NCBI GenBank assembly: GCA_963575645.1
Contig: OY754467.1
Coordinates: forward strand, 7,378,001 to 7,442,000
Direction: 5' to 3'
DNA: 64,000 bases
DNA from: Xanthostigma xanthostigma
Taxonomy: Eukaryota; Arthropoda; Insecta; Raphidioptera; Raphidiidae
The translations under genes and the position numbers were made by a program. The notes under the pieces were generated by a model, which saw only the letters and a program-made list of their open reading frames with translations, had not been told where the DNA came from and made no database searches. Positions 2,668 through 63,153 of the stretch are shown in pieces. Positions within the stretch are counted from its first letter, which is position 1, and every line of letters begins with the position of its first letter.

Positions 2668-3337
2668 ACTTTTATTCTATACTGAGCATAGGAATAAAAT
2701 CGCAATCGAACCATTAGACTTAAGAAATTTCTATATTGCTCCCTCCTGTGCCAAAAGCTGGGTACGCCCATGTTAACGTCATAGAAAAAGACAAAGTTTT
2801 TGAAACAGACACTTTATTTGCTTTATTCAGATTGAATGCAAGTACATCAACCAATCCTATCATCGGAGAAATCAGGGAATTACATCGAATAAAGAGACGC
2901 AGATATATTTTCGATACGCTTTGTTGCCTTCGCTCACCGCACATCATATATCTAACTATATGAATCATAGCCTATTTACTCAATGTGCGGTGAGTGAACG
3001 CAACAAAGCGTATCGAAAATATATCTGCGTCTCTTTCTTCGATGTAATTCTCTGATTTCTCCGATGATAGGATTGGTTGATGTACTTGCATTCAATCTGA
3101 ATAAAGTATCTCTGTTTCAAAAACTTTGTCTTTTTCTATGACGTTAACATGGGCGTCTCCAGCTTTTGGTCCAGGAGGGGGCAAATTAGAAATTTCTTAA
3201 TCCGGGTCTCCCCGTGCTTGTTTTGCCCTCCTGGATACGCCAGTGCTTACGGCGTAAAAAAGACAGAAGTACCTATATATTTGTACCCTAATGGTTCGAT
3301 TGCGATTTTATTCCTATGCTTAGTATAGAATAAAAGT
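2668..3337. mobile_element. long inverted-repeat (foldback) element, family F1, complete
   Basis: Left arm 2668-2945 and right arm about 2966-3337 are inverted copies: ACTTTTATTC at the outer left and GAATAAAAGT at the outer right. The inner ends meet at the GCACCGCACAT / ATGTGCGGTGAG junction near 2940-2990. The right arm holds about 70 bp that the left arm lacks, so the left arm has an internal deletion. The two arms could pair almost end to end in RNA or single-stranded DNA. Single arms of the same family recur at 11978, 18885, 19572/20478 and 35162. There is no coding capacity. Confidence 0.8.
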
Positions 3338-5998: not shown

Positions 5999-6757
5999 TC
6001 TATACTAATATATAAAGCTGAAGAGTTTGTTTGTTTGAACGCGCTAATCTCAGAAACTATACTGGTTCGAATTGAAAAATTTTTGTTGGATAGCCCATTT
6101 ATCGAGGAAGGCTATAGGCTATATAATATCACGCTACGACCAATTGGAGCGGAACATCAATGAAAAATGTTGCAAGATGTATCTCAAAATTTGTCCGTCC
6201 TACAAATATTATCAGGTGAAATGCCCTAACTAAATATTGCAATATTAGCGCATCACATTCACAAACTCGGATAGCTCAGTCGGTAGAGCATGAGACTCTT
6301 AATGCCAGGGTCGTGGGTTCAAGCCCCACGTCGGCGAATATATTTTTATTTTTTTTTATTTTCTACATTGCTTTCTTTAAAGGCTTACATTTCAATTTTT
6401 TAAAACTTTATTACGACTAATTAAAACTAAATAAATCTAATTAATAGCACATTTGAAAACTGTTAACTAAAGGTACCTATATAAAAATAATTTTCCTACG
6501 GTGTTTAAGTTTTTAATTATATATTTATTATATTTTATTAAGTACAGTAATTATTGTATTAAAAGAAATTTATTAGGTACTTAAAAAAAGTATAAATACT
6601 GCTTTTTAACGACAAAAATTTTTGATCGGTAACTCCGATCATTATGAAATTTGGACACAACATTCATCTCGGTAAACTAAGATAAATGTGCGTACTCATG
6701 TCCCTCCCTTCCCCATTCGTTCTTTTGCACCCGGGTGAAACCGGACGGGACCGCTAG
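5999..6757 (+). mobile_element. Helitron family A, non-autonomous, full length (759 bp)
   Basis: The 5' end is TCTATACTAATATATAAAGC and the 3' end is ...GGACCGCTAG after a GC-rich potential hairpin (CCCGGGTGAAACCGG). It is inserted between A (5998) and T (6758) with no target duplication, all as expected for Helitrons. It encodes no Rep/helicase. In the middle (6271-6340) sits a tRNA-Lys(CTT)-like sequence. Confidence 0.8.
6268..6340 (+). repeat. tRNA-Lys(CTT)-like sequence inside Helitron A
   Basis: The sequence resembles tRNA-Lys: a TAGCTCAGTCGGTAGAGCA D-arm (box A), a GACTCTTAAT anticodon loop carrying CTT, and GTGGGTTCAAGCCCCACG as T-arm with box B. The acceptor and anticodon stems do not pair fully, so I do not call a working tRNA gene; it is a captured or ancestral tRNA carried by the element. 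Confidence 0.7.
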
Positions 6758-8792: not shown

Positions 8793-9131
8793 TGGCAGCC
8801 CTATGCGAAGCGTTTGCATTGACAGTATATACGAGGTTTGAGGAAGAAAAGTGTGGTCGTGTTTATAGTAATCCTTCAAAACGAAATAATATTGAAGGGA
8901 AAAAATCGCGAGTAGGTACCTACTGGCTACTGGTCACATCGTATAAAAAATGTAGCAAGCTTTAGTGATAAGGTTAATTTTGTTGCACGAAAACAACATG
9001 TATAATCAGCTGACAGCTGTTATTTTTCAATTTTATAATTTTATATCAACATTTGCAATTTGCATAGGGTAGTTCACTGAAATGCTTGGTAGTTGGCTAG
9101 CGTGTTTTTTTTAGTTTTTTAAACTATAATT
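8793..9131. other. intergenic, unclassified
   Basis: No feature supported. Confidence 0.35.
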
Positions 9132-10011
9132 TATTTGATAATAAATAATAACGGGAAATGGAACTTTATTCTGTAAAATATATTTTTATTTTTATTGCCA
9201 ACGTTTCGTCTTAACTTCAGATTTCCTCAGGACTCTATAATTGACAGATAAAATACATTATTGATATAATAAGGAATTAAAATTTAAAATTAATAACATG
9301 ATATTGAAAATCTGTATATTACCAAAATTGTAGATTATTGCACATTCGTCTTTATCTGTAACCAGTCACTATTATTTATTTTTGGAAAATCCATGGTTTT
9401 TTTATTTTTTTTTCCACAAAATAATTTTAAATTTTTTAAAATATTAAAAAACGTCTGAAAATTTAAAATGTCAAAAAACGTCTAAAATTTTTTAAAATGT
9501 CGAAATGTTCATTAAGTAAACATTATGTAACCTCAATTTACACTGCATGAGTACATAGACATACCAATTTTTTTGAACAACTCAAAATTATTTTCATTCC
9601 GAACTATTTGCTGCATTCTGTTTTTTTGTTCTGGTCTTTTTGTAAAGATTCAATAAATTATTATAAGCAGCACTAAGCCGTTGTGTGTCAGTTCTGAAAT
9701 TAACTGTATCATGTAGATATATTTGAATCATCTCGCTTAATTTCGCTTGATTTTCCAAAAATAAATAACAGTGACTGGTTACAGAGAAAGACGAATGTGC
9801 AATAATCTACAATTTTGGTAATATAGGTACAGATTTTCAATATCATGTCATTAATTTTAAATTTTAATTCCTTATTATATCAATAATGTATTTTCTCTGT
9901 CAATTATAGAGCCCTGAGGAAGTCTTAAGTTAAGACGAAACGTTGGCAATAAAAATAAAAATATATTGTACAGAATAAAGTTCCATTTCCCGTTATTATT
10001 TATTATCAAAT
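9132..10011. mobile_element. inverted-repeat element with two hammerhead-like motifs (880 bp)
   Basis: The left arm 9132-9391 and right arm 9749-10011 are inverted copies, about 260 bp each, around a 350-bp AT-rich centre. The right arm carries CTGAGGA (9914-9920), a short self-complementary GTCTTA..TAAGAC stem and GAAACGTTGG (9937-9946). The left arm carries the same motif on the minus strand (9197-9231). No coding sequence. Confidence 0.72.
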
Positions 10012-10282
10012 TCACATAAGAGGAACGATAGCAACATAAAATATGAACTATAATTTATTTTCATAAATTTCAGTCTCAAAACGACATCAAAAGTTTTTTT
10101 TTTCAAAATTTTCAACTCAATTTTTTTCCAAAATTTCAAAATCAATTTTTTTTTCAAAATGTTTAAATTTAAATTTATTTTTATGAAATAATTGTATTGT
10201 CTTCGGCCCTTGACACGTGTGCAAATTTTCAAGTTAATCAGACTTTTTGAAGTTGGTGAAAATTACGCTGAAAGATTTCTTT
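10012..10282. other. intergenic, low-complexity A/T-rich
   Basis: Dominated by long T/A runs; the 78-codon frame on the minus strand is lysine/leucine low complexity and not a gene. Confidence 0.4.
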
Positions 10283-22685: not shown

Positions 22686-22728
22686 AAATAGATATAGATT
22701 AGTAGAAGTTTTGTTACAAAATATGTAT

Positions 22729-23238
22729 TGAAGGAGATTTATTTGGTTGAGGAACAATAGAAATAAGCTTTACCAAAGTATCGCTTGTGGCCAGCGTTTC
22801 GAAAATTATATTTTCATCATCAGGGCCTCAATGCAAGTTGAGATGGTAAATTGTGTAGATTATTGTAGTATACATGATCATTTAAAATTACGAATTTCAA
22901 CAAAATTTTTAATTTAAAAATATCGTAAGAGTTTTTTTGATAAAATTCCAATGTGAACATAAATATTGTACATAAACATAAATATTGTACAATATTTATG
23001 TTCACATTGGACAGAACAATTTTATCAAGAAAACTGTTTTACGATATTTTTATATTAAAAATTTTGTTAAAATTCATAATTTTAAATGATCATGTATACT
23101 ACAATAATCTGCACAATTTACCATCTCAACTTGCATTGAGGCCCTGAGGATGAAAATATAATTTTCGAAACGTTGGCCACAAGCGATACTTTGGTAAAGC
23201 TTATTTCCATTGCTCCTCAACCAAATAAATCTCCTTCA
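22729..23238. mobile_element. inverted-repeat element with hammerhead-like motifs (510 bp)
   Basis: Arms of about 245 bp (22729-22972 and 22990-23238) in inverted orientation. Plus strand of the right arm: CTGAGGA (23144-23150), GAAAATATAATTTTC stem, GAAACGTTGG (23167-23176). Minus strand of the left arm: CTGATGA, the same stem, GAAACGCTGG (22792-22822). No coding sequence. Confidence 0.75.
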
Positions 23239-23613
23239 CTAGATATAGAAAAGAAATGTAAGTTAGAGCCAGGGGCAATGTTTTCTAATGAAAATTGTAA
23301 TTTTCAGGAAATAAAATACGAAATTCTCTCTAAATTTTATGTAAATGTATAAGGGTGGTTTTTAATGTGGCAAAAAAATTCGTAACATATTCAGTTCAGA
23401 ATTCGTCATAATTGAAAATTGTATTCACCAAAGCTTATATATAACTTTAATCGTAAATTACTATTTTTTAAAAGCTATTTAGATATCATTGTGACAAGAA
23501 AATGTAATCTTTATGTTTTATTTAATATGAAATAAATATTTTTTTAATGTTTACTTAATTTTTTTTCTTTAAAAATAATTTAACAAATAAATCTGGCATC
23601 TTGTTTTGTATTG

Positions 23614-26323: not shown

Positions 26324-29300
26324 ATGTCGAATTTTAAAAACATATTCGCTTTAGTTTTTGTCGTAAATGTGGGTGTTTGGTCTGAAAATGTCAGTGATAC
26401 ACGTGATTCAAGTAACTGGTTCGAAGATTTTCCAGTTTTTCCAACTGCGTTTGCCAAATCCGACTTGATAAGTGATCCAACGTGTAAAAAGGATTGTCAA
26501 CTTTATATCAACAACTTGAAAAATTTTACGCTATGGGCAACATCAAGTAATTTATTTTTGTAATAAGTTTAGTTTTTTTAAATATAGGTATGTTCCAGAG
26601 AACGGACACGAAACCGTCACCGTCATGCGTAGTAGCTAAAACGAAACTGTTTGTATCGGTTTTGGAACACGTTTTGGCTATCTGCGCATGACGGTGACTG
26701 TTTCGTGTCCGTTCTCTGGCTGCTTGGAACATACCTTATATTTGCTAAGGCCTCTTGTTAACGACAACGGATAACGGCCCGATTTTTATGACGGGCAACG
26801 GGCCGACGCGCAATGTTCAATAAGTTAGTGCGGGTGTTTGTTAACGCGACGGGCATGTAACCGTAGCAACAAAACTCAACGGATACACGCACGTCGCCCC
26901 TCGGCGCGACGGCGGTCGTTCCGATACAGTGGACCACGTCATTTCATAGAAGTCTGTTGACGACGACAGATGTGCGCGCACGTTTTTACCTATACCTACC
27001 TTGTGCTGCTCATTGTGAATATGGAGTTTAAAATTGATATTGACATGAATTTATTAATTAGCCTTGTTCATAATAGGCCAGTGTTGGGACAAGACTTTAG
27101 AAAATCACAAAAATAAACAAGCAAGACATAACGTACTTGCACTTCTTCGCCCTTCAAGTATAGAACTGATATCGATAACAACGGACGCACTCACGTATAT
27201 TAGCGGATCGTGTAGAAAGGTAACCGTTTCGCATCGGCCCGTTACCCGTTGCCTAAAACAAACGTTAACAAGAGCTCTAAGCCTCTAACGCTTCTCGTTT
27301 AATTTTAGAGTATTTACCGCGATTCATATTTTCGATTTAGTATTTTTTCAATTTCATTTTTTCACTAGTTTTCGGTTTAGAAACCGGGAAACTTTATACT
27401 TATAACAATTTTTTTCTGACAACACATAGACCAGATAGAATCGGCGTTGTTGCCCCGAATTTCATTCGGATTCAAATGTTTTGCTAGAATCAGTTCAGGA
27501 TACCGTACTGATTATAAAAACACATGCTAACAGGCGGTTACCTGGTGTGACATTGTTTAAATCGATTTTTATAACAATAAGAAGAAGGAAAAAAATTCAA
27601 ACAAATAATTTTTTTTTAAGTTTTTGCCCGATTTTCAATAAAAACGTTAATATTTAAAGTTGATGTTATTAATGTCATTAATTTTTAAAAATTGAAAAAA
27701 TGCCGATTTTCCGTTTTCCTTGTTGTGCGAAACAATTGTTATAAAATATATATTATAGAGTAGCTACTGTTTGCTACAATTGTTAAGAAACATCCATTGT
27801 TACAACGCTATCAACATAGAAAAAATAGTTTATTTTTTCAAACAATGTCACCGTCGGGATACGAACCCCGAATCTTTCCACTCTCGCGGTGGACTGAGTT
27901 ACATTACACCACAGTGACACAACTATCAAGCTATCATTCTAATTTTATAGCATTGGTAACTGATTTTTTCACATTATGCGAGAGCCAATTATATTAGTTA
28001 ACGCTGTGATGGTTCATATCTAGCGTTAGCTAATATAATATATAAAAAACTAGCGGCTCTGTACGTGCTTCGCTACGTATAAAGTGAAATAATAAAACAA
28101 TTTAATTGGAACATCTATCTATCTATCTATCTATCTATTTTATTAATTGCTAGCTATTTTAAAATATACATGGGCGTATATGTGTGTATGTCGAGCACTC
28201 CGGCTGCGCCGTCGTGCTCGAAAAAAAATAGCGTAAAGTATTCGTGGATAACTGGTCTTTAAAACACTTGCACTATTTCGAGCACTCCGGCTGCGCCGTC
28301 GTGCCGAGCAGTTTTAAACGATATTCAGTTTTTTTACATCCTCGATCTAGATATATGGTTGTTAAGTTCGTTGCGCCATCTATTGAATATTCACTCAATC
28401 CAGTCAACAGGTTCGCCATCTTATATGGTTGTATTATGACTGTCAAGGAATAGACAAATAATTTGCAATAAAATAATATTGCGACTATAAATTGAAATGT
28501 AAGCTATCCTATCTTTCAAGTTGAGTCGAATTGCACACGGTGTGCAAATCAAATTTAAAATCGGTTCAGTAGTTTAGGAGTTCATCGCGGACAAACATGT
28601 GACACGTAATTTTTATATATTAAGATAAACTAATTTTTCTATGTTGATAGCGTTGTAACAATGGGTGTTTCTTAACAATTGTAGCAAACAGTAGCTACTC
28701 TATAATATATTATAATAATTACTAACTGTAACTAAACTCATCTAAATAAAATATATAGATAAATTAAAATCTTGCGTATTCTATATAATTTAAAATGTAA
28801 ATTCGAATTTGTTAGTGTTTGATTCGTCCACAAAAATGCCAACTGGAGTTTTGGGAGGTCGAGTTTTCGATCTCGGCAATTTTGACGAATGTTTAAGCGC
28901 CAGGGCAGATTACGGAAATGGAGGGATTTTAAAAGGAGAATATTGTTTATTCGAAATACACTATCATTTGAAAAACACATCGAAATTAACTGAAGATCCA
29001 TTCAAATTGACGTTTAATCAAATGAAGTCGGCTTGGGAAATGATACAGGTATGGTAAACCAAGGGCTTTCTAAAATCTAGATTAGTTGTCGTGCGTCTGT
29101 AATTGACAATCCCTCTTTACCCTAGTCCAGGGGTGGGGAACCTGTAGCACGCGTGCCACAGGTGGCATGCGACAGATTATTGTGGGTACTGCATTGATTG
29201 AGGTGCAAAATCAAAATACACCCATCCCCCGATTTACACGGTACTTGTTTTACACGTTTTCGCTTTTACACAGTTTTCCAAATAAGTTTTTTTTTGTTTT

Positions 29301-32300: not shown

Positions 32301-35300
32301 ATATCCATCTATATTTTGAATTCCAGACGTACAGAGACCCGAGTTATTTCATGCTGTACAACGGTCTGGTCATTGTCGATGCATTTTTTGCCATGAGCAG
32401 TACGTTAATTGTTTATCATCTAATGAAAAAAATATCCGAAAGAAAATCAATCAATCTTTTCTACGTTGCGGTACTCCGGTACGTGAGACTGGTGCCACTT
32501 TATATGCTGGTGGTGTTCTTTAATGCCACGGTATTGTGGTATTTGGGCGATGGGCCGTTCTGGAAGAAAATAATCGGTTTGGAGCGCGACAGATGCGTTC
32601 GTAGTTGGTGGACCAGTTTGGTTATGATTAATAATTACTACGAGCCAGAAAATATCGTAAGTCGTTCAACATTTTTTTTTCTAGAAAATTTTAGCGATAA
32701 TCTATAGTAAATTCCCTCTAAGAACGACTGTCTCCTCAGTTCTGCTTCTAACTGTAATTCCTTGCTTAATATATCCGGTGGATCTATTGCTTATTATTAT
32801 ATTGGAGCTACGACTGCGATGAAATAGCATTTTTTGGGTAACTTACGATGGTGAAAACAGGAAAATATTTTTGAGAATCGATTTTTTGAGTTATTGCCGA
32901 AATTGACCTTTTTATGGAACAAAAAATTCTGATATTCTTCTGTTCTTCTCTTTTCTTTGGTCTATCTCTACAAGATTGATGATCTAGGTAGTAAATCACC
33001 AATCTTGAGGAGAGATGATTTATGGTATTGCATTGACGAGCATCTATAATCGCAATATCTATCTTCAAATAAAGATTACAATAACAAAAATATTAAGAGC
33101 ACTGTGGTTTGAATCTAATCAAAAAATAGAGAATAGTTACTTCTTACCACAACAAGATTATTAGTGGATGTACATTTCGAGAGCTATGCTCTCATCTTCA
33201 GCAATACACTAAACAAAAGTTTAGTGTATTGCTGAAGATGAGAGCATAGCTCTCGAAATGTACATCCACTAATAATCTTGTTGTGGTAAGAAGTAACTAT
33301 TCTCTATTTTTTGAAAAGATTACAATATCTATCTTCATTGCTTGATACAAATTAATGGAACAAAAATGACTGTATGTTTTTTTCAGTGTATGTTCACGTC
33401 GTGGTACATATCTGTCGATTATCATTTGTTTATCGTGGGAATGCTGATCACATACATTATTGCAAAATTCAAATATATCGGATACTGTTTATTAGGCGCT
33501 ATGACAGTAGTATCGAATATTATTCCGATTCTGGTAATGTACCATCAAAAATCCGAAGCATTCTTACGAATTACACCCGAGTAAGTATTAATTTAATTGC
33601 ATTTCATCATTACATTATTTATAATTTCATTTTCTCTTAAACTACCAAAAAGCTGCAATATCTTAATAGGTCTTTTCTAGAACCTGATAAAGTATGGATG
33701 GCAATCTCCAGCAAGGTAATAAGGTACATCAAAAGCATTCTACCCGACTGGGAAAAAAATATCTATTAGGTCGCAGTGATTATGAGGCATATTTATTCTT
33801 ATCGCCTCATGTAAATCTAATTTTATTTAATCAATTTATGTTACCCAATAATTAAAAAAATATTTTCTTCGATTAATTTCAGACTAACGGATGTGCGATT
33901 AAATTCGTATTTTCAAAACATCTACATCCCTTCTCATATGAGAGCTAGTCCATATATGCTAGGAATAATCACTGGACTTATTTTATTCAAGTTTAAATTT
34001 ACGAATCGACTTTCTACGGTATGTATCTATTTTAAAATTTATACTAGCTACCAATTTCAGAATTTACCAATGGGGGCTTGTGAACATTTTAAATGGGTAT
34101 TCTGCAGGGTTAACCGGAGATACCATCTAACACGGGGTTAATTAAATTATGAATCACATACATGTTTATGATGTAGTAATTATTAACTTTTTTTTAAACA
34201 CTGTTGACAACAAAATACAGTCTACACCAGTGGTTCCCAAACTTATTTGGCCTACCGCCCCTTTTCCAGAAAAAATATTACGCCCCCTGGAATTTTTTTT
34301 TAATTTTAATAGAAATTAAACAGAAAGATATAATATTATTAGTGTTTCTACTTTTTTCGTAAAATATAGTAAAGAAAGGTGTAAATTTAAGTTTGAAATT
34401 ATGAAACTATTTATTGAACTCAGAAATCATCGTCCCCAAATGCACCTATGGCCCCCTGGATTACTGCAGCGCGCACCAGGGGGCGGCAGCGCGCACTATG
34501 GGAATCACTGGTCTACACTATATATTGCAACACTAGTCACTACTGCTATAAGCCTAGTATCGTGTATCATGTATGTGTAATATGTTTGTACTGTTGGATT
34601 TTTAAAAGAAGACCGGTCTATGGAATGTAGTCCTATGACCTTATTGCAGAAGAGCGCACATGTATTTTATATTACATAATATTAGTAAAAGATAATGATC
34701 CTAGAACCGCTTCTATGCAATAAGGGAGTCCAGTCGACCAAACGTTTAACAATTGTGTTATCGCGATAATTGTACTATTGCTAACAGTACAAAAAAATCA
34801 TACACCAGACAGTACATAGGTGTGCGTTCACGAACCAAGTTGAGGGGTGTTGTCTGAATATCATCAAAATGGAAAGTAAAAAAGGGAAAAACAGTTAGAA
34901 GTGGCGCTAGGGAGGTCATAGCGAATTTAATTAAAATGTGCGAGTTAGAGGCTCAAAGTAATGCCTTAAAATTTAAAGCTATACATTGTTTGCATGCCTT
35001 GCTATGCGCCGCCTATGAATTCCGATAATTTGGGAACACATCAGCGACTTCTTGCCCTTTCCCCACCGGTCTTCTTTCGCCGATCGCACAGTACTGAGAC
35101 ATACATACCGCCGACTCTGTCGCCGAGTCAAAGAAGTTAACTGAATAATATAGATTCAATCCATATACTTTTATTCTATACTGAGCATAGGAATAAAATC
35201 GCAATCGAACCATTAGGGTGCAAACATATACTTGTCTTTTTTACGCCGTAAGCACTGGCGTATCCAGGAGGGCAAAACAAGCACGGGGGACCCGGCTAAA

Positions 35301-37669
35301 GACATTTCTAATTTGCCCCCTCCTGGGCCGAAAGCTGGGTACGCCCATGTTAACGTCATAAAAAAGACAAAGTTTTTGAATCAGAGACACTTTATCCATA
35401 TCATCGGAGAAATCAGGGAATTACATCGAAGAATGAGACGCAGATATATTTTCGATACGCTTTGTTACGTTCACTCACCGCACATTGAGTAGATAGGCAA
35501 TGATTCATATAGTTAATTAATAAATACAAGATTTAATCGAACACGTTATCAATTGTGAGTTAGGAGTTACACGGTGTACACTGGGGGTATCTGGTGATGT
35601 TGCTTCAGAGTGCAAAACAGCGCCTGAACGCAAGACAGTCTACCACACAAAACACACACGAGTTTTGTGGTTTGCCAGTAGCTGTTAAACTTTAGCGTTG
35701 ATTGTGAATTATTACATTATTTCCTGACATTAAATATTTCTTAAATATGGAAAATAAAATTCATTCCAAAATGAAAAGTATCTAAGAATTTGCTTGTTCT
35801 GCAGCTCTGGATCGCTCTGGTAGCTATACGGTATTTTACAATCTAATTCTAAATTCGATTTCAGATAACCAGTTGGGTGCTAATAATCAGTTTGCTGGTC
35901 ACAGCTCATATTCCTCATGTGTTGGGTTATTATTACATGCTCCCCAGCAGTCCCACCGACCCTCTGTCCAACGCCATTTTCAACAATATCCAACGTTTGG
36001 TGTACACTGGGAGTATATGCAGTATCATACTCGTAATTGTTTATGGAGACGTTGGTAAATATAATAAATTTACGTTCTTGAAGTGAAACTTTTTTAGAAA
36101 CGACTGAAACCACTGAGCTCTGCGAAAGCATTGTTGTAGTAATCGCTACAGGAAGCTAGTGTGGATGTCCACAGTCGATGCGTCTAGAAGTTTCACTTCC
36201 GTAGTGTGTAGTGTAAAATACACGATCCGTTTCTTTTAGTTAAAAATATTACTAAAGCGAACAAAATCAACAAGAACAAGAACTTTTGAAAGAAAAATTA
36301 CTTAATTTTAGCTTTTATAACTTCTTCTATACTGACTGACTGACAGAAAACCCAAAGATCAAAGCCTAAACCGGTGGGTCTAGAACCCTGAAATTTTGCA
36401 CAGAAGGCCCTTATATGAGCACTAAGAAAGGACTTTTTTAAATTGTGAAAAATAACTCTAATAATTTAGAGTGATGATGATCCTGTTTAAATGTTGTAAG
36501 ATTAAAGGATGAATCCTGGTGGCATAGGATCGATGAACTGAGCAAATACTGAAGGTTTTTTTATTGCATTTTATTGTCCGACGTTTCGGCAAACTTTATG
36601 ACATCTTCGGAGAAATTTAAAGTTCATCCCCTAAGGAGGTTAAATATCTAATCTATAAATTAAAAAAAATGTCAAATGTCCGCTAATTTCAAATGATACT
36701 AAAAACTGGCAGACATTCGATAAATAGCCAGCGAATAATAGTGTAATACGGTGGAGCAGAGGGCTCCACTACTGACGTATAAAACATTGTTTCAACTCAG
36801 TAGCGTGCTGAACCGCGGGTAGCGGCTAGTCATTGAATAAAAAACAATTGATATTCGTTTATATGTCTTTTCAGAGCACCTCAGAAAGATAATGTCATCA
36901 AGGCTATTCATTATTATGAGTAGATTGGCGTATGGAGCCTATTTAGTACACTTTATTCCACAAATATTTGACCTTGGAATCCAAAGGTCGCCACGATATT
37001 TTCATCCATACATCCAGGTAAATTATATTACAATTTAAGAGCTTCATATTCTAAAACCCGCTGCACACGAGGATGGTTTGGCCGCTGAAATCGCGGCTGG
37101 GACTTATCTTGGCTACCGTGCTGGCTGCGGGGATGAAACTGACGTTACTGCGGGCTCCACTGCGTGGGAACAAGTTGGATTTCAATATTAGACCCGGGGC
37201 TATTTTGCGTGCTTGATCCTCTGCTAACTTTGAGCAAGACCTAATCAGAAAACAAGAGTTTGTAAGTGGCACGGGCAAACGTTAAAACAAGCATGGCGTC
37301 GTAGTGCGTGTTCTGTTCAGAGACAATAAACGCCCACTTTTGTTAACATTCGAACTGTCAATAAAAAACCAGCTTCAAAACAAGCATAGTGTGAAACCAA
37401 CACACACAAACCGTGACAAAATTCAGCGCCACAGTACGCTTGGAGACTAGCAGCGAATCTAGCGGCAAAACCAGCCTCGTGTGTCGCGGCCTGACTACGG
37501 AATCGATTTGAAAAATTCTTTGGCTGAATTATTGAATGAAAATGATTTTATTATATTTCAGATATGGAACACAATAGGTGATTTGGTGGTTACGTACGTT
37601 GCTTCTCTAATCTTAGCTATGTTGGTTGAATATCCAGCGAAGAATCTTATTTCAAAGTACTTGAAATAA
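26324..37669 (+). CDS. nose resistant to fluoxetine (NRF-6)-like multipass acyltransferase, gene 1, complete, 10 exons
   Basis: Model: 26324-26546, 28816-29048, 30437-30651, 31414-31699, 32327-32656, 33387-33580, 33883-34018, 35865-36054, 36875-37017, 37562-37669 (2058 nt, 685 aa), all GT/AG and in frame. The start at 26324 gives a signal peptide (FKNIFALVFVVNVGVWS); an in-frame ATG at 26255 would bury it. Residues ~40-220 form the extracellular NRF domain with spaced cysteines (GNFDECL, GEYCLFE, ICIPSSC, DGCTV). Residues ~225-685 form an acyltransferase-3 multipass domain (NGLVIVDAFFAMSS, RYVRLVPLYMLVVFF, WWTSL, CMFTSWYISVDYHLF, RLAYGAYLVHF). The usual HGxR of the family is HAIK (287-290), with the histidine at 301 kept. 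The family acts in membranes in lipid or drug transport or acylation; the true substrate is unknown. Tandem paralogue at 55134. Introns are full of MITEs. Confidence 0.92.
26588..26736. mobile_element. MITE family M1, hairpin copy in NRF1 intron 1
   Basis: GGTATGTTCCAGAGAACGGA at the left pairs with the end TCCGTTCTCTGGCTGCTTGG, and the inner ACCGTCATGCG..AGTAGC block pairs with CGCATGACGGT. It is a ~149-bp imperfect palindrome. Confidence 0.65.
26749..27285. mobile_element. PIF/Harbinger-like MITE in NRF1 intron 1
   Basis: Ends GGCCTCTTGTTAACG / CGTTAACAAGAGCTCTAAGC are inverted, with a short indel. The 3-bp target duplication TAA flanks it (26746-26748 and 27286-27288). Interior rich in GGGC-type words (ACGGGCAACGGGCC). 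No transposase. Confidence 0.6.
27847..27918 (-). repeat. tRNA-like sequence (72 nt)
   Basis: In reverse: acceptor GTCACTG...CGGTGAC pairs over all 7 positions (one G-U). TGGTGTAATG resembles box A. TCCAC-CGCGAGA-GTGGA makes a 5-bp anticodon stem with a 7-base loop. GGTTCGTATCC is box B, with a paired T-stem. Position 33 is G, not U, so a working tRNA is unlikely; it is a tRNA-derived repeat. Confidence 0.6.
28050..28625 (-). mobile_element. Helitron-like element (576 bp), in NRF1 intron 1
   Basis: In reverse: TCTTAATATATAAAAATTAC at 28625 (before T) to CTAG at 28050 (after A). It contains a (ATCT)n run (28110-28138) and two copies of a GC-rich near-palindrome, CGAGCACTCCGGCTGCGCCG... (28192-28222 and 28276-28305). 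Non-autonomous. Confidence 0.65.
29128..29861. mobile_element. hAT (Charlie-like) MITE in NRF1 intron 2, with a nested element
   Basis: CAGGGGTGGGGAACCTG at the left and CGCCACCCCTG at the right are the usual Charlie-type hAT ends. The flanks CCCTAGTC / CCCTATAG are an imperfect 8-bp duplication. Confidence 0.6.
29218..29660. mobile_element. TIR MITE nested in the hAT element
   Basis: Ends ACACCCATCCCCCGATTTAC and GTAAATCGGGGGATAGGTGT are inverted; the TTTACACGG word recurs four times inside. Confidence 0.7.
30015..30400. repeat. GC-rich ~110-bp tandem-like repeat in NRF1 intron 2
   Basis: Three related blocks each begin G(A)CGCGTGTGGC and contain GAGACACGTCCGA, CGCCCGC or CGCGCAT, and CAATTTCACA (starts near 30024, 30204, 30312). 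It is far more GC-rich than the rest of the intron and runs to 36 bp before the exon 3 acceptor. Confidence 0.6.
31006..31456 (+). repeat. tandem duplication (~225 bp x 2) across the NRF1 intron 3 / exon 4 border
   Basis: Copy 1 is 31006-31232 and copy 2 is about 31233-31456, with only a few base and indel differences. Each contains the last ~180 bp of intron 3, a TTACTTTCAG acceptor and the first 43 bases of exon 4. Only copy 2 continues into the real exon (31414). The acceptor in copy 1 (exon start 31190) would read 14 correct codons and then run to TAA in repeated intron. Confidence 0.88.
33119..33313. mobile_element. inverted-repeat element with hammerhead-like motif, NRF1 intron 5
   Basis: A nearly perfect 195-bp palindrome with arms of ~92 bp. 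The right arm reads CTGAAGA (33232-33238), a GAGAGCATAGCTCTC stem and GAAATGTACA; the left arm is its complement. Confidence 0.75.
34228..34510. mobile_element. hAT MITE (283 bp), NRF1 intron 7
   Basis: Perfect 8-bp duplication GTCTACAC (34220-34227, 34511-34518). Ends CAGTGGTTCCCAAAC / GGGAATCACTG, the classic hAT form. Interior C- and G-rich near the right end (GGGGGCGG). Confidence 0.88.
35162..35500. repeat. foldback family F1, single arm in NRF1 intron 7
   Basis: ATACTTTTATTCTATACTGA at the outer side through GGTGCAAACATATACTT and CTGGCGTATCCAGGAGGGC to CACCGCACATTGAG at the inner side. It retains the outer block that the left arm at 2668 has lost. Confidence 0.65.
36490..36680 (-). repeat. 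fragment with hammerhead-like motif, NRF1 intron 8
   Basis: Reverse strand: CCGAAGATG (about 36604-36612) through GCCGAAACGTCGG (36579-36591). The flank TGGCATAGGATCGA (36520-36533) matches TGGCATAAGGATCGA in the element at 62594-62813, so the two are one family. The first box is changed (CCGAAGA instead of CTGAAGA) and the stem is poor. Confidence 0.5.
37056..37493. mobile_element. TIR MITE in NRF1 intron 9
   Basis: CCGCTGCACACGAGGATGGT at the left and ACCAGCCTCGTGTGTCGCGG at the right are inverted (about 50 bp with mismatches). GC-rich interior for the first 150 bp. The target duplication is not clear. Confidence 0.65.
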
Positions 37670-42037: not shown

Positions 42038-42604
42038 AATGCAGTTAACAAAAAAACAGACATCGAAAAATTAAGCAAAGTGTATGACAATATCCTAAAA
42101 TAAAAGAACCAATGTAGACAGACATTCTAATAATTTTGAACTTTTAATGTTTGAAGGACGAATTTAATATAAAGGTTAAAAAGGTTAAAAAAATATATAA
42201 TTGTATATCAAATAATACGATTTTAATTTTAATTTTAGAATATTAAAATTTTACAAAGTGCTAAGGATATATTTTTAAAAAAATTTTTAAAAGTTTTTTT
42301 TTTATTTTTATGAAGTTTAGTTTTTTTAAAGTTTTTAAATGATGGACAATCATGTTTTTAAATTAATTTATGTTTTTAACTTGTGACTTTTATTAGACAT
42401 TTTTAAAGTAAGCCGTAATAAATAATTATTTGATGTACAAAATTTTATAAAATTTTTTTTTTTAATTTTAAATGTTTAGTTTATGTTTAGATGTGTAGAG
42501 TTTTGTTTGTTTGTTATAGGTCCTGAAGAAGGCAATAATTGTTTGCCGAAACGTTGACTATAAATATTGTTTTAAAATTTTGCCTTGTATCCCGTTAACT
42601 TCAT
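42038..42604 (+). mobile_element. Penelope-like fragment with hammerhead-like motif (tentative), inserted in the LINE
   Basis: A 9-bp duplication CAATCTATC flanks it (42029-42037, 42605-42613), and the LINE frame is continuous across the duplication. Near its 3' end lies CTGAAGA (42523-42529), a GGCAA..TTGCC stem and GAAACGTTG (42548-42556). Its first ~60 bases read KTDIEKLSKVYDNILK and stop, which could be the end of a longer protein. The ends are weakly inverted (ATGCAGTTAAC / GTTAACTTCAT). The assignment to Penelope rests on the motif and context only. Confidence 0.5.
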
Positions 42605-44208
42605 CAATCTATCTTGGGTAACTGGAATATTCCCAAAGGAATTGAAAACTGCAAAAATAGTGCCAATATATAAAAAAGGTGATAAGCTTAAAATAGATAA
42701 CTATCGGCCAATATCACTTTTAACAATATTTACTAAAATTATAGAAAGCCTCATGTACAATAGACTTATACATTTCACACAACAGTATAATATAGTAACA
42801 GAATGTCAACACGGTTTTCGACCCAAGCGCTCTACCTGCACGGCTTGCTACTTAAGCAAATGGACCAGAAATACTTCACTTGTCTACTATTCTTCGATTT
42901 GTCAGCTGCTTTTGATACAGTGTGCCATCAGTTTCTTCTAGAAAAAATCAATAAACTTGGTATAAGGGGCACTACAAACGATTGGTTTAGAACATACTTA
43001 GAAAATAGAACAGCAATTATTAGCATAGATCAACACAAATCTATTAAATACGATATGAAAACTGGAGTTCCACAAGGCAGTAATTTAGGCCCAATTATGT
43101 TCCTACTTTACATAAATGATTTACCAAACTACATAAGCTGTGGAAAGGTCACAATGTATGCAGATGATACAAGTATACTAGTAACTGCAAAAACACTTCA
43201 AGATTTAGAGTTTTATGTTAACAAATCACTTGAAGAGTTCTACACCCGGTGTAAAACAAATCACCTAATTATTAATCTTAACAAAACGAACTATGTTGTA
43301 TTTGACAGACCAAATGTGTGTACTAAAATAAATGTGTCCTATAAGAATACTGCCATAGATGAAGTATTTGAAACCAAGTTTTTGGGGATAATGGTGGACA
43401 GTAAGATACAATGGAAAGAGCAAGTTAACAGCGTATGTAAAAAACTGAACAAAATACATTACTATTTGAGATCTTTAAAAAGTATTTTTGACACTTGAGC
43501 ACTGTTAAGTATATGCTATGCGTTTACATATAGCAACATAAAATATTGTGTGATTTTATGGGGACATGCATCAGAATCCATTCGAGTATTTAGAGCCCAA
43601 AAAAGGATTATAAGATTAATATTCGGAGCAAAATACAATGAGTCCTGTAAAAAATATTTCATAGACAACAGCATAATGACTTTTTATAGCATTTATATAT
43701 TTGAACTACTGTTATACGTTAAAGACAATATAAATAATTGCACATACCGCTAAATTTTTTTAATTGTTTTTTTTTTAAATCTATTTTCTCAATTTTTTTT
43801 CATTGTAATATGTACCTACAGTGGAAAACTTGCGGGATGTGCACTTTTGGTTTTGCCAACTATTTTAAATTTGGATCAGATATCCATAACTATAGCACCA
43901 GAACAAGTGATATGATTTACATAGAAAAATATAATACAACACGCTACAGTAAAGCGCCAATATGTAAAGGATGCATTCTATATAACAAATTGCCAAATGA
44001 AATAAAAAATATAAAAAATAATAAAAAATTTAAATCAGTCTTGAGGATCTACCTTGTTAATAAATGTTTGTACGAACCAGAATTGTAATTTTAGTACTAC
44101 TTTATGTATTTGACTTGTGCATACTTATTTAAGTCTTAGCACTAATAAACTTATTATTATTATTATTAATCGCATGTAAATTTTGATAATTGAAGTGAAA
44201 CTTCTTTA

Positions 44209-58100: not shown

Positions 58101-61100
58101 TAGTTTATTGCTAACATAAGCTGAAAACGCTCGATCAGGTTCTGCGCTCGTTGGAGGAATAGACAATAGATACTTACATGCTGTTTCTAAGTGATATCCA
58201 CGAACTTCTCCATTTCCGAACAGGCTTATTTCACGTCTAATACTATTTGCCAACCCCGATTCATTTTGTACTTGTACTTCAGGATCTGGAGATTTCATAC
58301 GTATCGTACCGCGTATTTAAGGATTGTTTTTTGTCGTTATGTAATAAATAATATTAATATAATCTAGGAAAGGTAATTGTCAAGGCGCAACGGATTACGG
58401 AATACAAACTAGATCTGTTTTTGGCAATCCCGAAAATCCTGAGACTAGCCAAGTACGATCCCGGGATTTTCGGGGCCAGAAAAGGGCCGGGATCCCGAGA
58501 TTCGGGATCCCGGGATTGTATTCTCTAACAACGTTCCTCTACACTAAAAATTATAGAAACAGAACTAATTGTTCGCCATGAAGTGTAATGGATCGTTAGT
58601 TCGCGTTGGCGTGATCATATTGAATATTAAAAGTAATCATAAAATAACAAATCACTCCTTACTTCACGAGTTTCGGCGGATGTTTACATTAACAGAAGAT
58701 GATTTTGTTTTAATCATCTCCTGATGCTGATTAGTGAAACAAAGTTATTCTAAAGTGAAACTGACATCGAGAAGAAATAAACGGTTTGATGTTTTGTGAC
58801 TATTTTTAATTAATATGCTTGGTATTATTAGCAATTATAAAAGAATCAAATGGAGCGATGAGGAACGTTGTGTAAGGAAACCTAGTTGGAACTTCTTGTT
58901 GTCGTGGGTCATGACAGTAATAGTAAAATCAATTTGGCGAAAAAAAATCATTTCGTATCAAAACCACACAAAAAGGTGAAACTTGGTGAGTCGTTAGAGA
59001 ATGATGAAAAAAAGGTTACCTGGCAATGGCCACCTGGTACCTGTTCAAATAGTCAAAAAAAACTCAAAAATATTTTGAAATGCATTTTTCTCGAAAACTA
59101 TGCATTTTACAGAAAAATTTATTGAACAAAAAATGTAGAGGGCATCGTTATCTACAATTAATGTCATTGGTGCTATGTTGTACAACAAAAAATGTGCGCA
59201 GTAGGTGGCGCTAAAGTGCCAAAAAAAGTGTTTTTCCACTTTTTTGCCCTGAAATTTTCATTTTTCAGTTACGATTCAAATGGAAAAATTGTTCCTTTTT
59301 ATTTTATAAACAACTTTTATTTCAACATTTTTTTCATACAACTTATTTTCACTTCAACAAGCTGCAGCTCTGAAACGGTAAGTTGTATGAAAAAAATGTT
59401 GAAATAAAAGTTGTTTACAAAATAAAATGGAACAATTTTTCCATTTGAATCGTAACTGAAAAATGAAAATTTCAGGGCAAAAAAGTGGAAAAACACTTTT
59501 TTTGGCACTTAAGCGCCACCTACTGCGCACATTTTTTGTTGTACAACATAGCACCAATGACATTAATTGTAGATAACGATGCCCTCTATATTTTTTGTTC
59601 AATAAATTTTTCTGTAAAATGGATAGTTTTCGAGAAAAATGCATTTCAAAATATTTTTGAGTTTTTTTTGACTATTTGAACAGGTATTTGAACAGGTACC
59701 AGGTGGCCATTGCCAGGTAACCTTTTTTTTCATCATTCTCTAACGACTCACCAAGTTTCACCTTTTTGGATGGTTTTGTTGAGGTTTTTGCCAGATTGAC
59801 TGTACTATAAGACGCAGATGTTCGTTGTCTCCACTACAACTCACGGTCGAGACAATGAACGTTTACTTTTCCTAGTGTAACAAGGCTTCATCTTCGTCGT
59901 ACCATTCGGTACGGCACTCGGTGGAGACACTTTGCTTCCCGCAACCATGCGAAACAAACCAAACTGAAGCGTTCCTCAAGTTGAGTTGCATCAATGAATA
60001 CGAAAAGATGTTGAGCTAGGTTCCAAAATGTGGAAACAAATAAGAAAATCTCGTTCCGACTTACGAAATCAAAGATTTTATTTTCCATTTCAGACCTACA
60101 GATCGATGATTGCTGTAGTTCTTCATTGTGGTTGGGTCGCGGTTGATGCATTCTTCGTTATCAGTGCCGTAATAATGTCTTACAATTTACTAAATCAGTT
60201 GGATAAGAGACCGGTGAATCTAACTTCACATATTTTCTTACGCTACGCCCGTCTCACTCCAACTTATATGATTGTCGTATTCTTTATTGCAACTAGTTTT
60301 TATTATACGGGAAGCGGTCCGTTTTGGAATAAGTATGTTGGATTGGAGCAAACCAGATGCAGTACAAATTGGTGGACTAGTTTGTTGTACATTCAAAATT
60401 ACTATGATAGTGCCAATATGGTAAGTTTTTAGTCGGGTTGGCCTAAGAGCCGGGAAGCTAAGTTTTTGTGTTTATTTTCACAATGTTTGCTTTATATATA
60501 GAAGATTTCTAATGCTTGACTCGATGTCCTCTAGCCAAGGTATCAGTACCGTAAAGGGGACACTAACATGGAATATGGAAACATATTTTTATTATGCAGA
60601 ACGAAAATATACGCCCGTTTGAGAACACAACTTTATAATCTGAGAAACACTGAAGGGTTCTTTGTAGCGTAATCATTAATAATGTTGATGTGCATGAGTT
60701 CAAAAGCGTATAACCTTATTTTTGTGAATATCCAATTTGATAAATGCGGATATTCTAAATTTTATTACGGCACTTTGATCACGTGTTTAATATCAAAGCA
60801 ATTTTAATTAATTATTGCGGTCGATGTCTCTCAGATTTTGGAGTTTTGTTTCGCAATCTAGCAAAATATTAATAGTATTTTATTTTTAGTGCATGTTTCC
60901 ATCCTGGTATATAGCCAGTGACTTCCATCTTTTTATTATTGGAACAATTTTAACTTTCATATATTCATGGAATTATAAAGTCGGACTTTTAGCTTTGTCA
61001 TCTTGTATTTTAATTTCAATTATTATACCATTTGTCGAAATTCTGGTTGACAAAGCTGATCCATTTTACATCTTTTTACCAGAGTAAGTCAAATTCGTTA

Positions 61101-63153
61101 TTCGCTGTTAGGTGATCAATTTTTTTTTGGAAAAACACAGCAAATGTTTTTATGAAAATGTTTCAGAACTGAAGATATGAGAAACGATGCATATTTTCTC
61201 AAATTTTATATACAAACTCAGTATAGAGCGACGCCATATTTGATTGGTTTGTTGACAGGAATTTTCTTTCATAAAGTCAAGAGTGAACAACACATACCAA
61301 AAAATTATAAACCTAAGGTATTTCGATTAAATAAATTGCTGGTCGAAATTAACGAAGCACTCGGTAAAAGAATTAATTAAACTAAAGCGGAGTAAATTTC
61401 AAAACATCAGATAGCCGTCAACGAATTTGACGAAGACCCGAAGGAAGACTCTCTGCCTGCAATAATAATGTCTCTGGAACTATATGCAGTTGTCGAAACA
61501 AATTCCTTCCACCATCATCAAATGGTTCCCAATTAATCTCCAGGTCTTCGTCATATTGGTTCACGGCGTCTGATAATTTCAAAACTCAGAACAGCGCCTG
61601 AACGCAAGAGAGTCTGCCACAAAGGACACACGAGTTTGGTGGTCTTCTAGTGGCTGATAAACTTCAATGTTGCTACTATTACACTATTTCCTAACATTAA
61701 ATATTGGTAAATGTGGAAAATATATTTTATTCTAAAATTGTGAAGTACCAAAATTTTGGCTGCTCTGCAGCGCTCTTGAAGGAACCGCCACTAATTAAAA
61801 AGATAGAAGAAGAACTGAGTGCTACGTTAATTTTTGTATATTTATTATCACTAAATTAATATTTCTTGTGATTATTTTATCTAATTATTTTAGGTAACAT
61901 CAATGGTAATTTTCACTGTATGTATGATATGGTTTTTTGGGTGCATGATGAGCGGTTATCCATTCATTATTCCTGGGAAGAAATATACTGCCTTGGAAGC
62001 GGCCACTTATAACATCTTCCATCGAATTGCTCTCGCCATTGGTACCGTTGGCATATTTTGTATTTTCGCTTACGGAAATATGGGTATGTTTTTTGTGACA
62101 AAATAAGAAAATGTATATCGTCGTTGGTTCTGTAATACCTCGTATGTGCAAAAAGTAAAATTTGCAGGAAAGGCCAAAAAGTGGTTATTTCAGCAATGGA
62201 TGGTAAGAACTAGCAATTTCAGAGGTATATTACTAATTCATACTTATCTTTACTATACGTGTTTAATTAAGACGAAGAATTTTCTTAAAAAATATTTAAC
62301 GTTAATTTCGGATTTATTGGCACATGGGAGGAATTATTTGATACAACTTTTCACATAAGAGTTACTTCCTCTTGTTGGTTACTGTAAAATTAATTTGGAG
62401 GTATTACTAGTGTATAGAGCTCCGTTTCCTGAATCTTTTCATTTAAAAAACGTAAAATCTACCAACTATGCACATAAGAGCTATTACAGAACCAACGACG
62501 ATATGCCGTAACCCGAACTCAAAATTTTAAATGTTTATAATATGAAGATTGACTCTATTCAATAAATAGAGTAACTGTGATCCATTGAAGTTAATGATGA
62601 GTATTTGGAAAGAATTCCGTGGCATAAGGATCGAAAATGAAGCAATACTGGACTTTTTTAAACTTGCATTTAATACATGTGACAGCATTTGAACACTCTG
62701 AAGATGATACAAAACGTATCGAAACGTTAGTATTAAATGCAAGTTTAAAAAAGTCTCAGTATTGCTTCATTTTCGATCCTTATGCCACGGAATTCTTTCC
62801 AAATACTCATCTTTAAATGTTTATGTTTCAGGATTTTTATATAGATTGTTTATTGTGAAACCGTTTGTAATTCTGGGTCGACTGACATTTGGAGTCTACA
62901 TTGCACATATTTTACCTCATTTATACACAATTGGGACCCAAAGAGCTCCAAACTATTTTAGTTTTTATACTTTCGTAAGTATTGTTTTACATACAAAATA
63001 CCAACTGACCTTCTTTGAAACGTTTTTTATTTTTTATAGGTGGAATCTCTGATAACAGATGTCGTGCTGTCTTTTCTATTAGCGCTTATTTTGGCATTGA
63101 TAGTTGAACTACCTACGAGAAATCTCACCAATTTGTATTTTAGAAAGAAGTAA
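55134..63153 (+). CDS. nose resistant to fluoxetine (NRF-6)-like multipass acyltransferase, gene 2, complete, 10 exons
   Basis: Model: 55134-55395, 56144-56376, 56852-57069, 57470-57722, 60094-60420, 60890-61083, 61167-61317, 61894-62083, 62832-62974, 63040-63153 (2085 nt, 694 aa), all GT/AG and in frame. Signal peptide MMRNIIKNITVFFIYLAF... at the start. NRF domain: KLYMENLNKFKLWA, FDSSTKFPSGVAGG, GNFDEC, KYCLV, MCIPSAC, GCTI. Acyltransferase-3 region: VDAFFVISAVIMSY, RYARLTPTYMIVVFF, WWTSLLYIQNYY, CMFPSWYIASDFHLF, LGRLTFGVYIAHI, and the last helix ending in LPTRNL. HGxR is HAAK (290-293), with the histidine at 304 kept. Exons 2, 6, 8 and 9 equal those of gene 1 in length (233, 194, 190, 143 nt) and all phases agree, so the two are tandem duplicates, now quite diverged. 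The role is inferred from family only. Confidence 0.92.
57812..58527 (-). mobile_element. hAT element relic (716 bp) in NRF2 intron 4
   Basis: Perfect 8-bp duplication ACAACGTT (57804-57811, 58528-58535) and TAGAGAATACAATC inverted ends. Both subterminal regions are full of CCCGGGATC words. On the minus strand (58298-58053) a frame reads LLSIPPTSAEPDRAFSAYVS then RSRLGSQTLDALIF, the hAT C-terminal dimerisation domain. The rest of the transposase is missing. Confidence 0.88.
58959..59777. mobile_element. 0.8-kb hairpin (foldback) in NRF2 intron 4
   Basis: Arms of ~385 bp in inverted orientation (58959-59345, 59378-59777), over 90% similar by eye: GGTGAAACTTGGTGAGTCGT at the left, its complement at the right, meeting at a ~30-bp loop with AGCTGCAGCT. 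The opposed short frames are mirror artefacts. Confidence 0.82.
62594..62813. mobile_element. inverted-repeat element with hammerhead-like motif in the loop, NRF2 intron 8
   Basis: Arms 62594-62674 and 62732-62813 pair almost perfectly (TGGCATAAGGATCGAAAATG and its complement). The loop on the plus strand holds CTGAAGA (62698-62704), a GATAC-AAAAC-GTATC stem and GAAACGTTAG (62721-62730). Confidence 0.72.

Follow-up and report, generated by a model that had tools for sequence, protein, structure and literature searches.

The minimal type I hammerheads found in Penelope-like elements (PLEs) were reportedly treated by Cervera and de la Pena in 2014 and by Lunse, Weinberg and Breaker in 2017. Hammerheads cleave after an NUH triplet in which H is not G, and in the canonical form, to our knowledge, A9 is directly followed by stem II. 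In three reviews (PMC6155905, PMC7761336, PMC6466107), the hammerheads of PLEs are described as minimal, lacking helix III, possessing a palindromic stem III and cleaving as tandem dimers. For PAc, a Poseidon PLE of Anolis carolinensis, it was reported that the protein cuts and extends both DNA strands, that two internal start sites on the RNA bound the tail, and that the ribozyme cut only together with the protein and was dispensable for insertion in vitro (PMC11167929). The mode of PLE insertion, and the reason for the inversion of the copies and for tails on only some of them, is an open question (PMC3846280, PMC11167929).

The window analysed here is a stretch of 64 kb out of a eukaryotic genome of 623 Mb. 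The motif recurring in it is very probably the minimal type I hammerhead of PLEs, represented by several families, whose palindromic insertions probably came from two-sided priming. It is the published PLE minimal hammerhead and not a new ribozyme. What is added to the known is the support by covariation and by the GUH rule, an extra conserved nucleotide, and the rule that of the two ends of a palindrome one is short and the other tailed.

A covariance model of the motif, which was built from 20 copies, revealed nine copies in the window with E <1e-5. They lie at 9904, 62688, 42513, 23134 and 33222 and, on the reverse strand, at 9187, 22780, 33158 and 36567; the scores of five of the nine are not independent, because the model had been trained on these five copies, among others. 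One more match (28980-29026, E 0.5) was left uncounted. The layout that an earlier note on this DNA had claimed for eight places was present at all of them, the copy at 36579 being decayed, as had been said. Two of the sequences had to be revised: the copy at 33232 exhibits the layout but ends at 33262 and reads GAAATGTA and not GAAACGTT, while at 22795-22823 the layout stood and the box was corrected to GAAACGCTGG, the base before H17 being altered. The copy at 33158-33211 (reverse strand) is the inverted partner of the one at 33232 and had escaped the earlier note. For the family D copy, no inverted partner was found. Taken singly, the boxes showed a modest excess over chance, CTGANGA occurring 29 times in the window (17.3 expected) and GAAACGTTGG with at most one mismatch 10 times (4.1 expected). 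By a strict pattern search of the genome, however, the combined layout gave 22,811 matches versus 621 for the backwards pattern.

Table 1. Hammerhead copies and palindromic PLE insertions in the window.
Feature	Position	Strand	Details
Family A hammerhead core	9914..9944	+	stem I GCC/GGC; stem II GTCTTAA/TTAAGAC; CTGAGGA is followed by an extra A; cut predicted at 9944/9945
Family A hammerhead core, inverted partner	9200..9230	-	predicted cut 9200/9199
Family B hammerhead core	23144..23174	+	stem I GGCC/GGCC; cut predicted at 23174/23175
Family B hammerhead core, inverted partner	22795..22823	-	CTGATGA; GAAACGC, base U16.1 changed
Family C hammerhead core	33232..33262	+	stem I TTAGTG..TG / CA..CACTAA; belongs to one family with the motif that lies downstream of RT+GIY-YIG frames
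Family C hammerhead core, inverted partner	33171..33201	-	absent from the earlier note
Family D hammerhead core	42523..42555	+	stem I GGTC/GACT; immediately 5' of a LINE-like RT fragment
Family E hammerhead core	62698..62728	+	stem I CACT/AGTA; predicted cut 62728/62729
Family F decayed hammerhead copy	36567..36620	-	covariance model 34.5 bits, E 7.1e-6
Family A palindromic PLE insertion	9137..10045		arms at 9133-9391 (-) and 9749-10011 (+), head to head; flanked by the 15-bp target duplication AACTATAATTTATTT (9122-9136, 10046-10060); the right end carries the tail, about 10012-10045
Family B palindromic PLE insertion	22699..23239		tail on left end; 10-bp target duplication TAGATATAGA at 22689-22698 and 23240-23249; this 10-mer occurs three times in the window
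Family C palindromic PLE insertion	33084..33314		tail on left end; 13-bp target duplication AAAGATTACAATA at 33071-33083 and 33315-33327
Family E palindromic PLE insertion	62539..62811		tail on left end (by eye); 13-bp target duplication TTTAAATGTTTAT at 62526-62538 and 62812-62824

Stem I, which the earlier note had been unable to place, was tested at the register demanded by a hammerhead cut after GUH. Its positions 1 to 4 were paired in 26, 23, 22 and 11 of 26 hand-picked family representatives, a level that none of 2000 shuffles matched, and registers moved by one or two positions gave no excess over shuffles. The representatives had been drawn from listings requiring the two boxes only, not the stems, and from copies near GIY-YIG frames. 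An unedited set of 16 hairpin groups, in which chance-like matches were retained, had 45/64 cells of stem I and 54/64 cells of stem II paired, and neither value was reached in 2000 shuffles. In an alignment of 20 rows (one of them partial), 84.5% of the cells of both stems were paired and the covariation score amounted to 0.845, compared to 0.229 for shuffled and at most 0.232 for slid alignments; pairs changed on both sides were not in excess (7 versus 6.7 in shuffles). Stem I was thus located in the hammerhead register and covaries, and the covariation of stem II, which had been named as a check, was found in the hairpin groups as well as in the 20-row alignment. The two covarying stems support the reading as a hammerhead-like RNA.

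Stem II pairs well only if one nucleotide is skipped after CUGANGA. With the canonical register, pairing in the 16 hairpin groups dropped from 54/64 to 23/64 cells, which is chance level, and on the 20-row alignment it was likewise not above shuffles (38.8% paired). This register was slightly over shuffles in 34 distinct hairpins (64/136; 27/2000), as was one skipping two bases in the 26 representatives (44/104; 26/2000). The unpaired U or A before the stem, which had been recorded as a caution, proved to be a constant feature, since it is kept in 25 of the 26 representatives (14 with A and 11 with U, the remaining one having G).

The search pattern required the CUGANGA and GAAA boxes and did not require stem II; as the core boxes were demanded by the pattern itself, only the GUH rule is free of search bias. 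Among 21,176 genome matches with U16.1, the position H17 before the predicted cut was occupied by H in 20,975 and by G in 201, while the backwards-pattern control had G there in 41 of 213. The U before H17 was absent in 1,635 of the 22,811 matches. Almost all genome matches with U16.1 thus carry the NUH triplet of type I hammerheads, a rule of which the earlier note had made no use.

Stem I comprises 3-5 bp, in some families with an inner loop and a second helix. A stem III hairpin of the type I hammerhead was not detected in the copies, which merely possess the palindromes ACGU, AUGU or ACGAUCGU at this place. Behind GAAA, most families have (A)CGU and family C has (A)UGU; the CG of ACGU was fixed by the search pattern, and the U was free and present in 21,176 of 22,811 matches. 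In one family (L073, L077, L085), GAAA is separated from the cut triplet by a more extended palindromic stem III, ACGAUCGU. Because stem III is only a palindrome, cleavage of the predicted RNA after GUH would be expected chiefly in dimers, either tandem or intermolecular, and may be aided by the PLE protein. The predicted fold of a family A single strand contained stems I and II as proposed, and that of family B formed other pairs in the core. Co-folding of two copies yielded long duplexes, in which the dimeric hammerhead was not seen.

The Rfam hammerhead models gave no match in the window, neither at the gathering score nor at E up to 10. Such a match had been suggested as a check, and its failure speaks only weakly against a hammerhead, since the copies lack a stem III hairpin and carry an additional nucleotide in the core. 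The Rfam models therefore overlook all copies in this window. Two miRNA-like Rfam matches (33163-33270 and 22945-23011) coincide with palindromes and were rejected. A tRNA match above the Rfam gathering score (34 bits) at 6272-6329 is possibly a tRNA-derived repeat.

The window has six loci with the motif, four of which represent short palindromic insertions that comprise the ribozyme region and whose arms both read outward (Table 1). They are not working elements. All of them are flanked by exact target duplications of 15, 10, 13 and 13 bp, respectively, which were recognized by eye and then located. Thus, pLTRs with a tail, inverted copies and a target duplication, as known for PLEs, are present. 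Two further long and near-perfect palindromes (59038-59686 and 2821-3106) were seen, in neither of which a motif copy was found.

With regard to the element type, the earlier note had brought up PLEs and retrozymes. The former are supported for family C by its linkage to RT+GIY-YIG frames, and the latter, being direct tandem repeats, are not supported by the orientation of neighbouring motifs. A search of the genome for GIY-YIG gave 37 matches among the 150 candidates scored out of 521. Of 30 excised loci, L021 to L038 belong to the family C type, with an overlap between L035 and L036; the family C motif was present in 16 of these 18, and in 13 it was situated 236-257 bp downstream of the longest frame and on the strand of that frame. 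RVT_1 and GIY-YIG resided in one frame in all three family C loci scanned, RVT_1 of L021 being below the cut-off. The window copy of family C has the motif of L021 and nearly identical flanks. Other motif families occurred near GIY-YIG matches in L009, L015, L016, L018 and L020. GIY-YIG frames of a different kind were observed in L010, L011, L013 and L014, with no motif match in the 3.2-kb locus. An own RT+GIY-YIG frame was found for family C alone; families A, B, D and E are presumably PLEs by virtue of the shared ribozyme, and for A, B and E the tail and the palindromic architecture point in the same direction. Pfam was applied to 8 of the 24 listed frames of the window and disclosed RVT_1 in two frames at 42576-43498 and a sub-threshold US10 match, but no GIY-YIG in these eight. 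The RVT_1 match (E 1.9e-23), which was classified by eye as a LINE-like RT fragment, directly follows the family D copy, and this PLE copy appears to sit in a LINE.

The head-to-head arrangement prevails among neighbouring motifs. At 100 listed places, neighbouring motifs within 1.2 kb were head-to-head in 19 cases, tail-to-tail in none and in the same direction in two; within 3 kb, the numbers were 20, two and three, respectively. To describe the palindromes, we classified each outer end as short or, if longer by a tail of 30-40 nt, as tailed. One tailed and one short end were found in 26 of 27 classifiable pairs of family A (28 pairs), the tail lying about equally often on the left and on the right (13 each). 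The same combination was seen in family B (24 pairs) in 20 of 21 classifiable pairs when coordinates were used and in 20 of 22 when these pairs were aligned locally, in family C in 28 of 29 classifiable pairs (33 pairs), and in family E in all 13 classifiable pairs (16 pairs). In these four of the five tests, for which 40 candidates per search were scored, tailed copies were favoured because the query carried the tail. The fifth test used a family C query without the tail and comprised all 23 head-to-head clusters that had not been listed before; 22 of them (19/20 and 3/3) followed the rule. If each end were chosen at random with a probability of 1/2, at least 22 of 23 would be expected with about 3e-6 (24 in 2^23), and 19 of 20 with 2.0e-5. 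Exceptions were two tailed ends at C7:35614960 and, weakly, in L121, and two short ends in L090, in L136 and at C2:18471352. L090 is a nested or mosaic structure, in which a family C palindrome lies between inverted copies of the GGTCC hammerhead family. By eye, the palindromes of L129 to L132 likewise had one tailed and one short end. Clusters with a single arm numbered 7 in family C, 16 in family B and 24 in family E, and few partner arms were found for a tail comparison in the major GATCC family. A strict one-tail rule is not stated in the available parts of the literature searched, which did not include Cervera and de la Pena 2014, Lunse 2017 and Craig 2021.

The inner ends of the arms vary independently; in 9 of the 28 family A pairs they lie over 100 nt apart in the element, and in family C both arms mostly reach an identical inner point. 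At least 9 bases were shared by the flanks in 21 of 23 palindromes of the tail-less C sample (4% for swapped flanks of 20), at least 8 bases in 14 of 20 of family A (18% for swapped flanks), and at least 9 bases in only 9 of 24 of family B (1.4% for swapped flanks). The target duplications indicate that the clear palindromes are single insertion events. Arm divergence within family A palindromes was on average 0.019, compared to 0.022 for others (permutations 0/5000); there is little variation in this family, and the partners of a palindrome are often not the closest arms. In family B, 35 discordances between the arms of one palindrome were counted at 13 informative sites (53.9 expected), and 13 at the six sites with a minor frequency of at least 0.19 (33.9 expected). 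This sharing of variants suggests a common source RNA or locus in family B, and gene conversion could mimic it.

A scheme consistent with these structures would begin with a staggered break made by the PLE enzyme, leaving two 3' ends. One of them would prime at a near internal site of the RNA and the other one at a far site; both cDNAs would be extended toward the 5' end of the RNA and halt at different points, and the two 5'-truncated cDNAs would then be joined head to head. A stricter version, which we put forward tentatively and regard as possible yet not as the probable case, is that PLE integration is an obligately asymmetric, two-ended target-primed reaction, in which a dimeric enzyme with two reverse transcriptases works on one RNA. 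The start sites, 30-40 nt apart, would then each be primed by one side of the staggered break, every insertion would end short on one side and with a tail on the other, and the length of the tail would reflect the spacing of the two active sites. With PAc, no difference between top and bottom strand was seen regarding the start site, and ribozyme mutants left the insertion unaltered (PMC11167929). By analogy, strand-indifferent start sites of this kind count against a coupled two-sided model. A genome that harbors motif copies in the thousands, with many situated in short palindromes, offers a natural data set for PLE insertion.

Instead of priming at both DNA ends, the palindromes may have been produced by fold-back self-priming of one cDNA or of an antisense RNA. 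Self-priming was put forward for head-to-head inverted PLE copies of rotifers (PMC3846280), and the arms of one family B palindrome share common variants beyond random pairs (13 versus 33.9 discordant). The same sharing is equally expected, however, if one RNA is copied at both ends or if the arms undergo gene conversion, and the inner ends of 9 of 28 family A pairs differ by over 100 nt. Since fold-back copying predicts two equal outer ends and one short and one tailed end were observed, we do not favour this explanation and consider it rather unlikely. Together with the target duplication, the near-strict rule on the ends constrains the mechanism in quantitative terms and speaks against self-priming of the plain kind. 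Much less probable still is that the palindromes are foldback or MITE-like DNA transposons with a chance hairpin in their inverted repeats: inverted arms and target duplications would fit, but the arms are internally truncated, each outer end takes either of two alternative positions, RT+GIY-YIG frames adjoin the family C motif, and both stems as well as the GUH rule are features of an RNA. Similarly, it is very doubtful that the copies are metazoan retrozymes, i.e., non-autonomous tandem repeats with type I hammerheads. Minimal type I hammerheads do occur in non-coding dispersed repeats, and retrozymes are thought to borrow PLE enzymes (PMC7761336); yet they are direct tandem repeats of 150-450 bp (PMC7229834), while same-direction neighbours made up only 2 of 21 pairs within 1.2 kb at the 100 listed places, and the absence of the stem III hairpin from these copies is contrary to what is expected of a retrozyme.

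A further alternative concerns the role of the motif. The boxes and stems could serve the PLE reverse transcriptase as a protein-binding or start signal, the inherited hammerhead shape no longer cutting here. That insertion by PAc was unchanged by ribozyme mutants and that no RNA-seq ends were found at its cut site (PMC11167929) is in line with such a signal, as is the fact that the predicted cut is not enriched for arm ends: 0 of 72 in family A and 1 of 64 in family B ended within 2 nt of it, BLAST ends being fuzzy. A binding site need not, on the other hand, retain the core and the GUH rule with H17 rarely being G, and both are kept across families with unrelated stems. We therefore judge a pure signal to be improbable and retain the reading as a ribozyme. 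A single palindrome transcript would be unable to form a tandem dimer, because each strand holds one sense and one antisense copy; tandem dimers would be possible only from tandem full-length elements or from two RNAs. Arms holding the whole ribozyme would have been copied from uncut RNA, and any cutting would occur at the RNA of the full-length element. As arm ends are not enriched at the cut and the PAc ribozyme is dispensable in vitro, the palindromic copies are read as footprints of insertion. The left arm of the family E insertion (62539-62676) ends, by eye, at most 1 nt from the predicted cut, as if cut RNA had been the template.

Compared with the minimal hammerheads of PLEs as described in the reviews, the motif has the same type I core, the same stems I and II and a palindromic stem III implying dimers, the same location in PLE pLTRs and thousands of dispersed copies; the difference is a single unpaired nucleotide, A or U, that separates A9 from stem II in 25 of 26 representatives. 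PAc resembles the elements described here in having RT and GIY-YIG in one frame, a pLTR with a hammerhead, and two RT start sites bounding a tail of 30-40 nt (PMC11167929). The distance from A9-U-G to the cut is 25 nt in family C and, reckoned from its start codon, 26 nt in PAc (PMC11167929), and the position of this start codon suggests that PAc has an extra U as well. PAc is, however, a different element in a different host, and the ATG in the family C hammerhead opens no long frame, its fourth codon being a stop. The rotifer Penelope elements (PMC3846280) share the head-to-head inverted pLTRs, target duplications of 8-10 bp and a 31-bp tail on one of the inverted pLTRs. There, few large elements are concerned, the tail is termed optional and self-priming is proposed, whereas we found many short palindromes with, almost strictly, one short and one tailed end.
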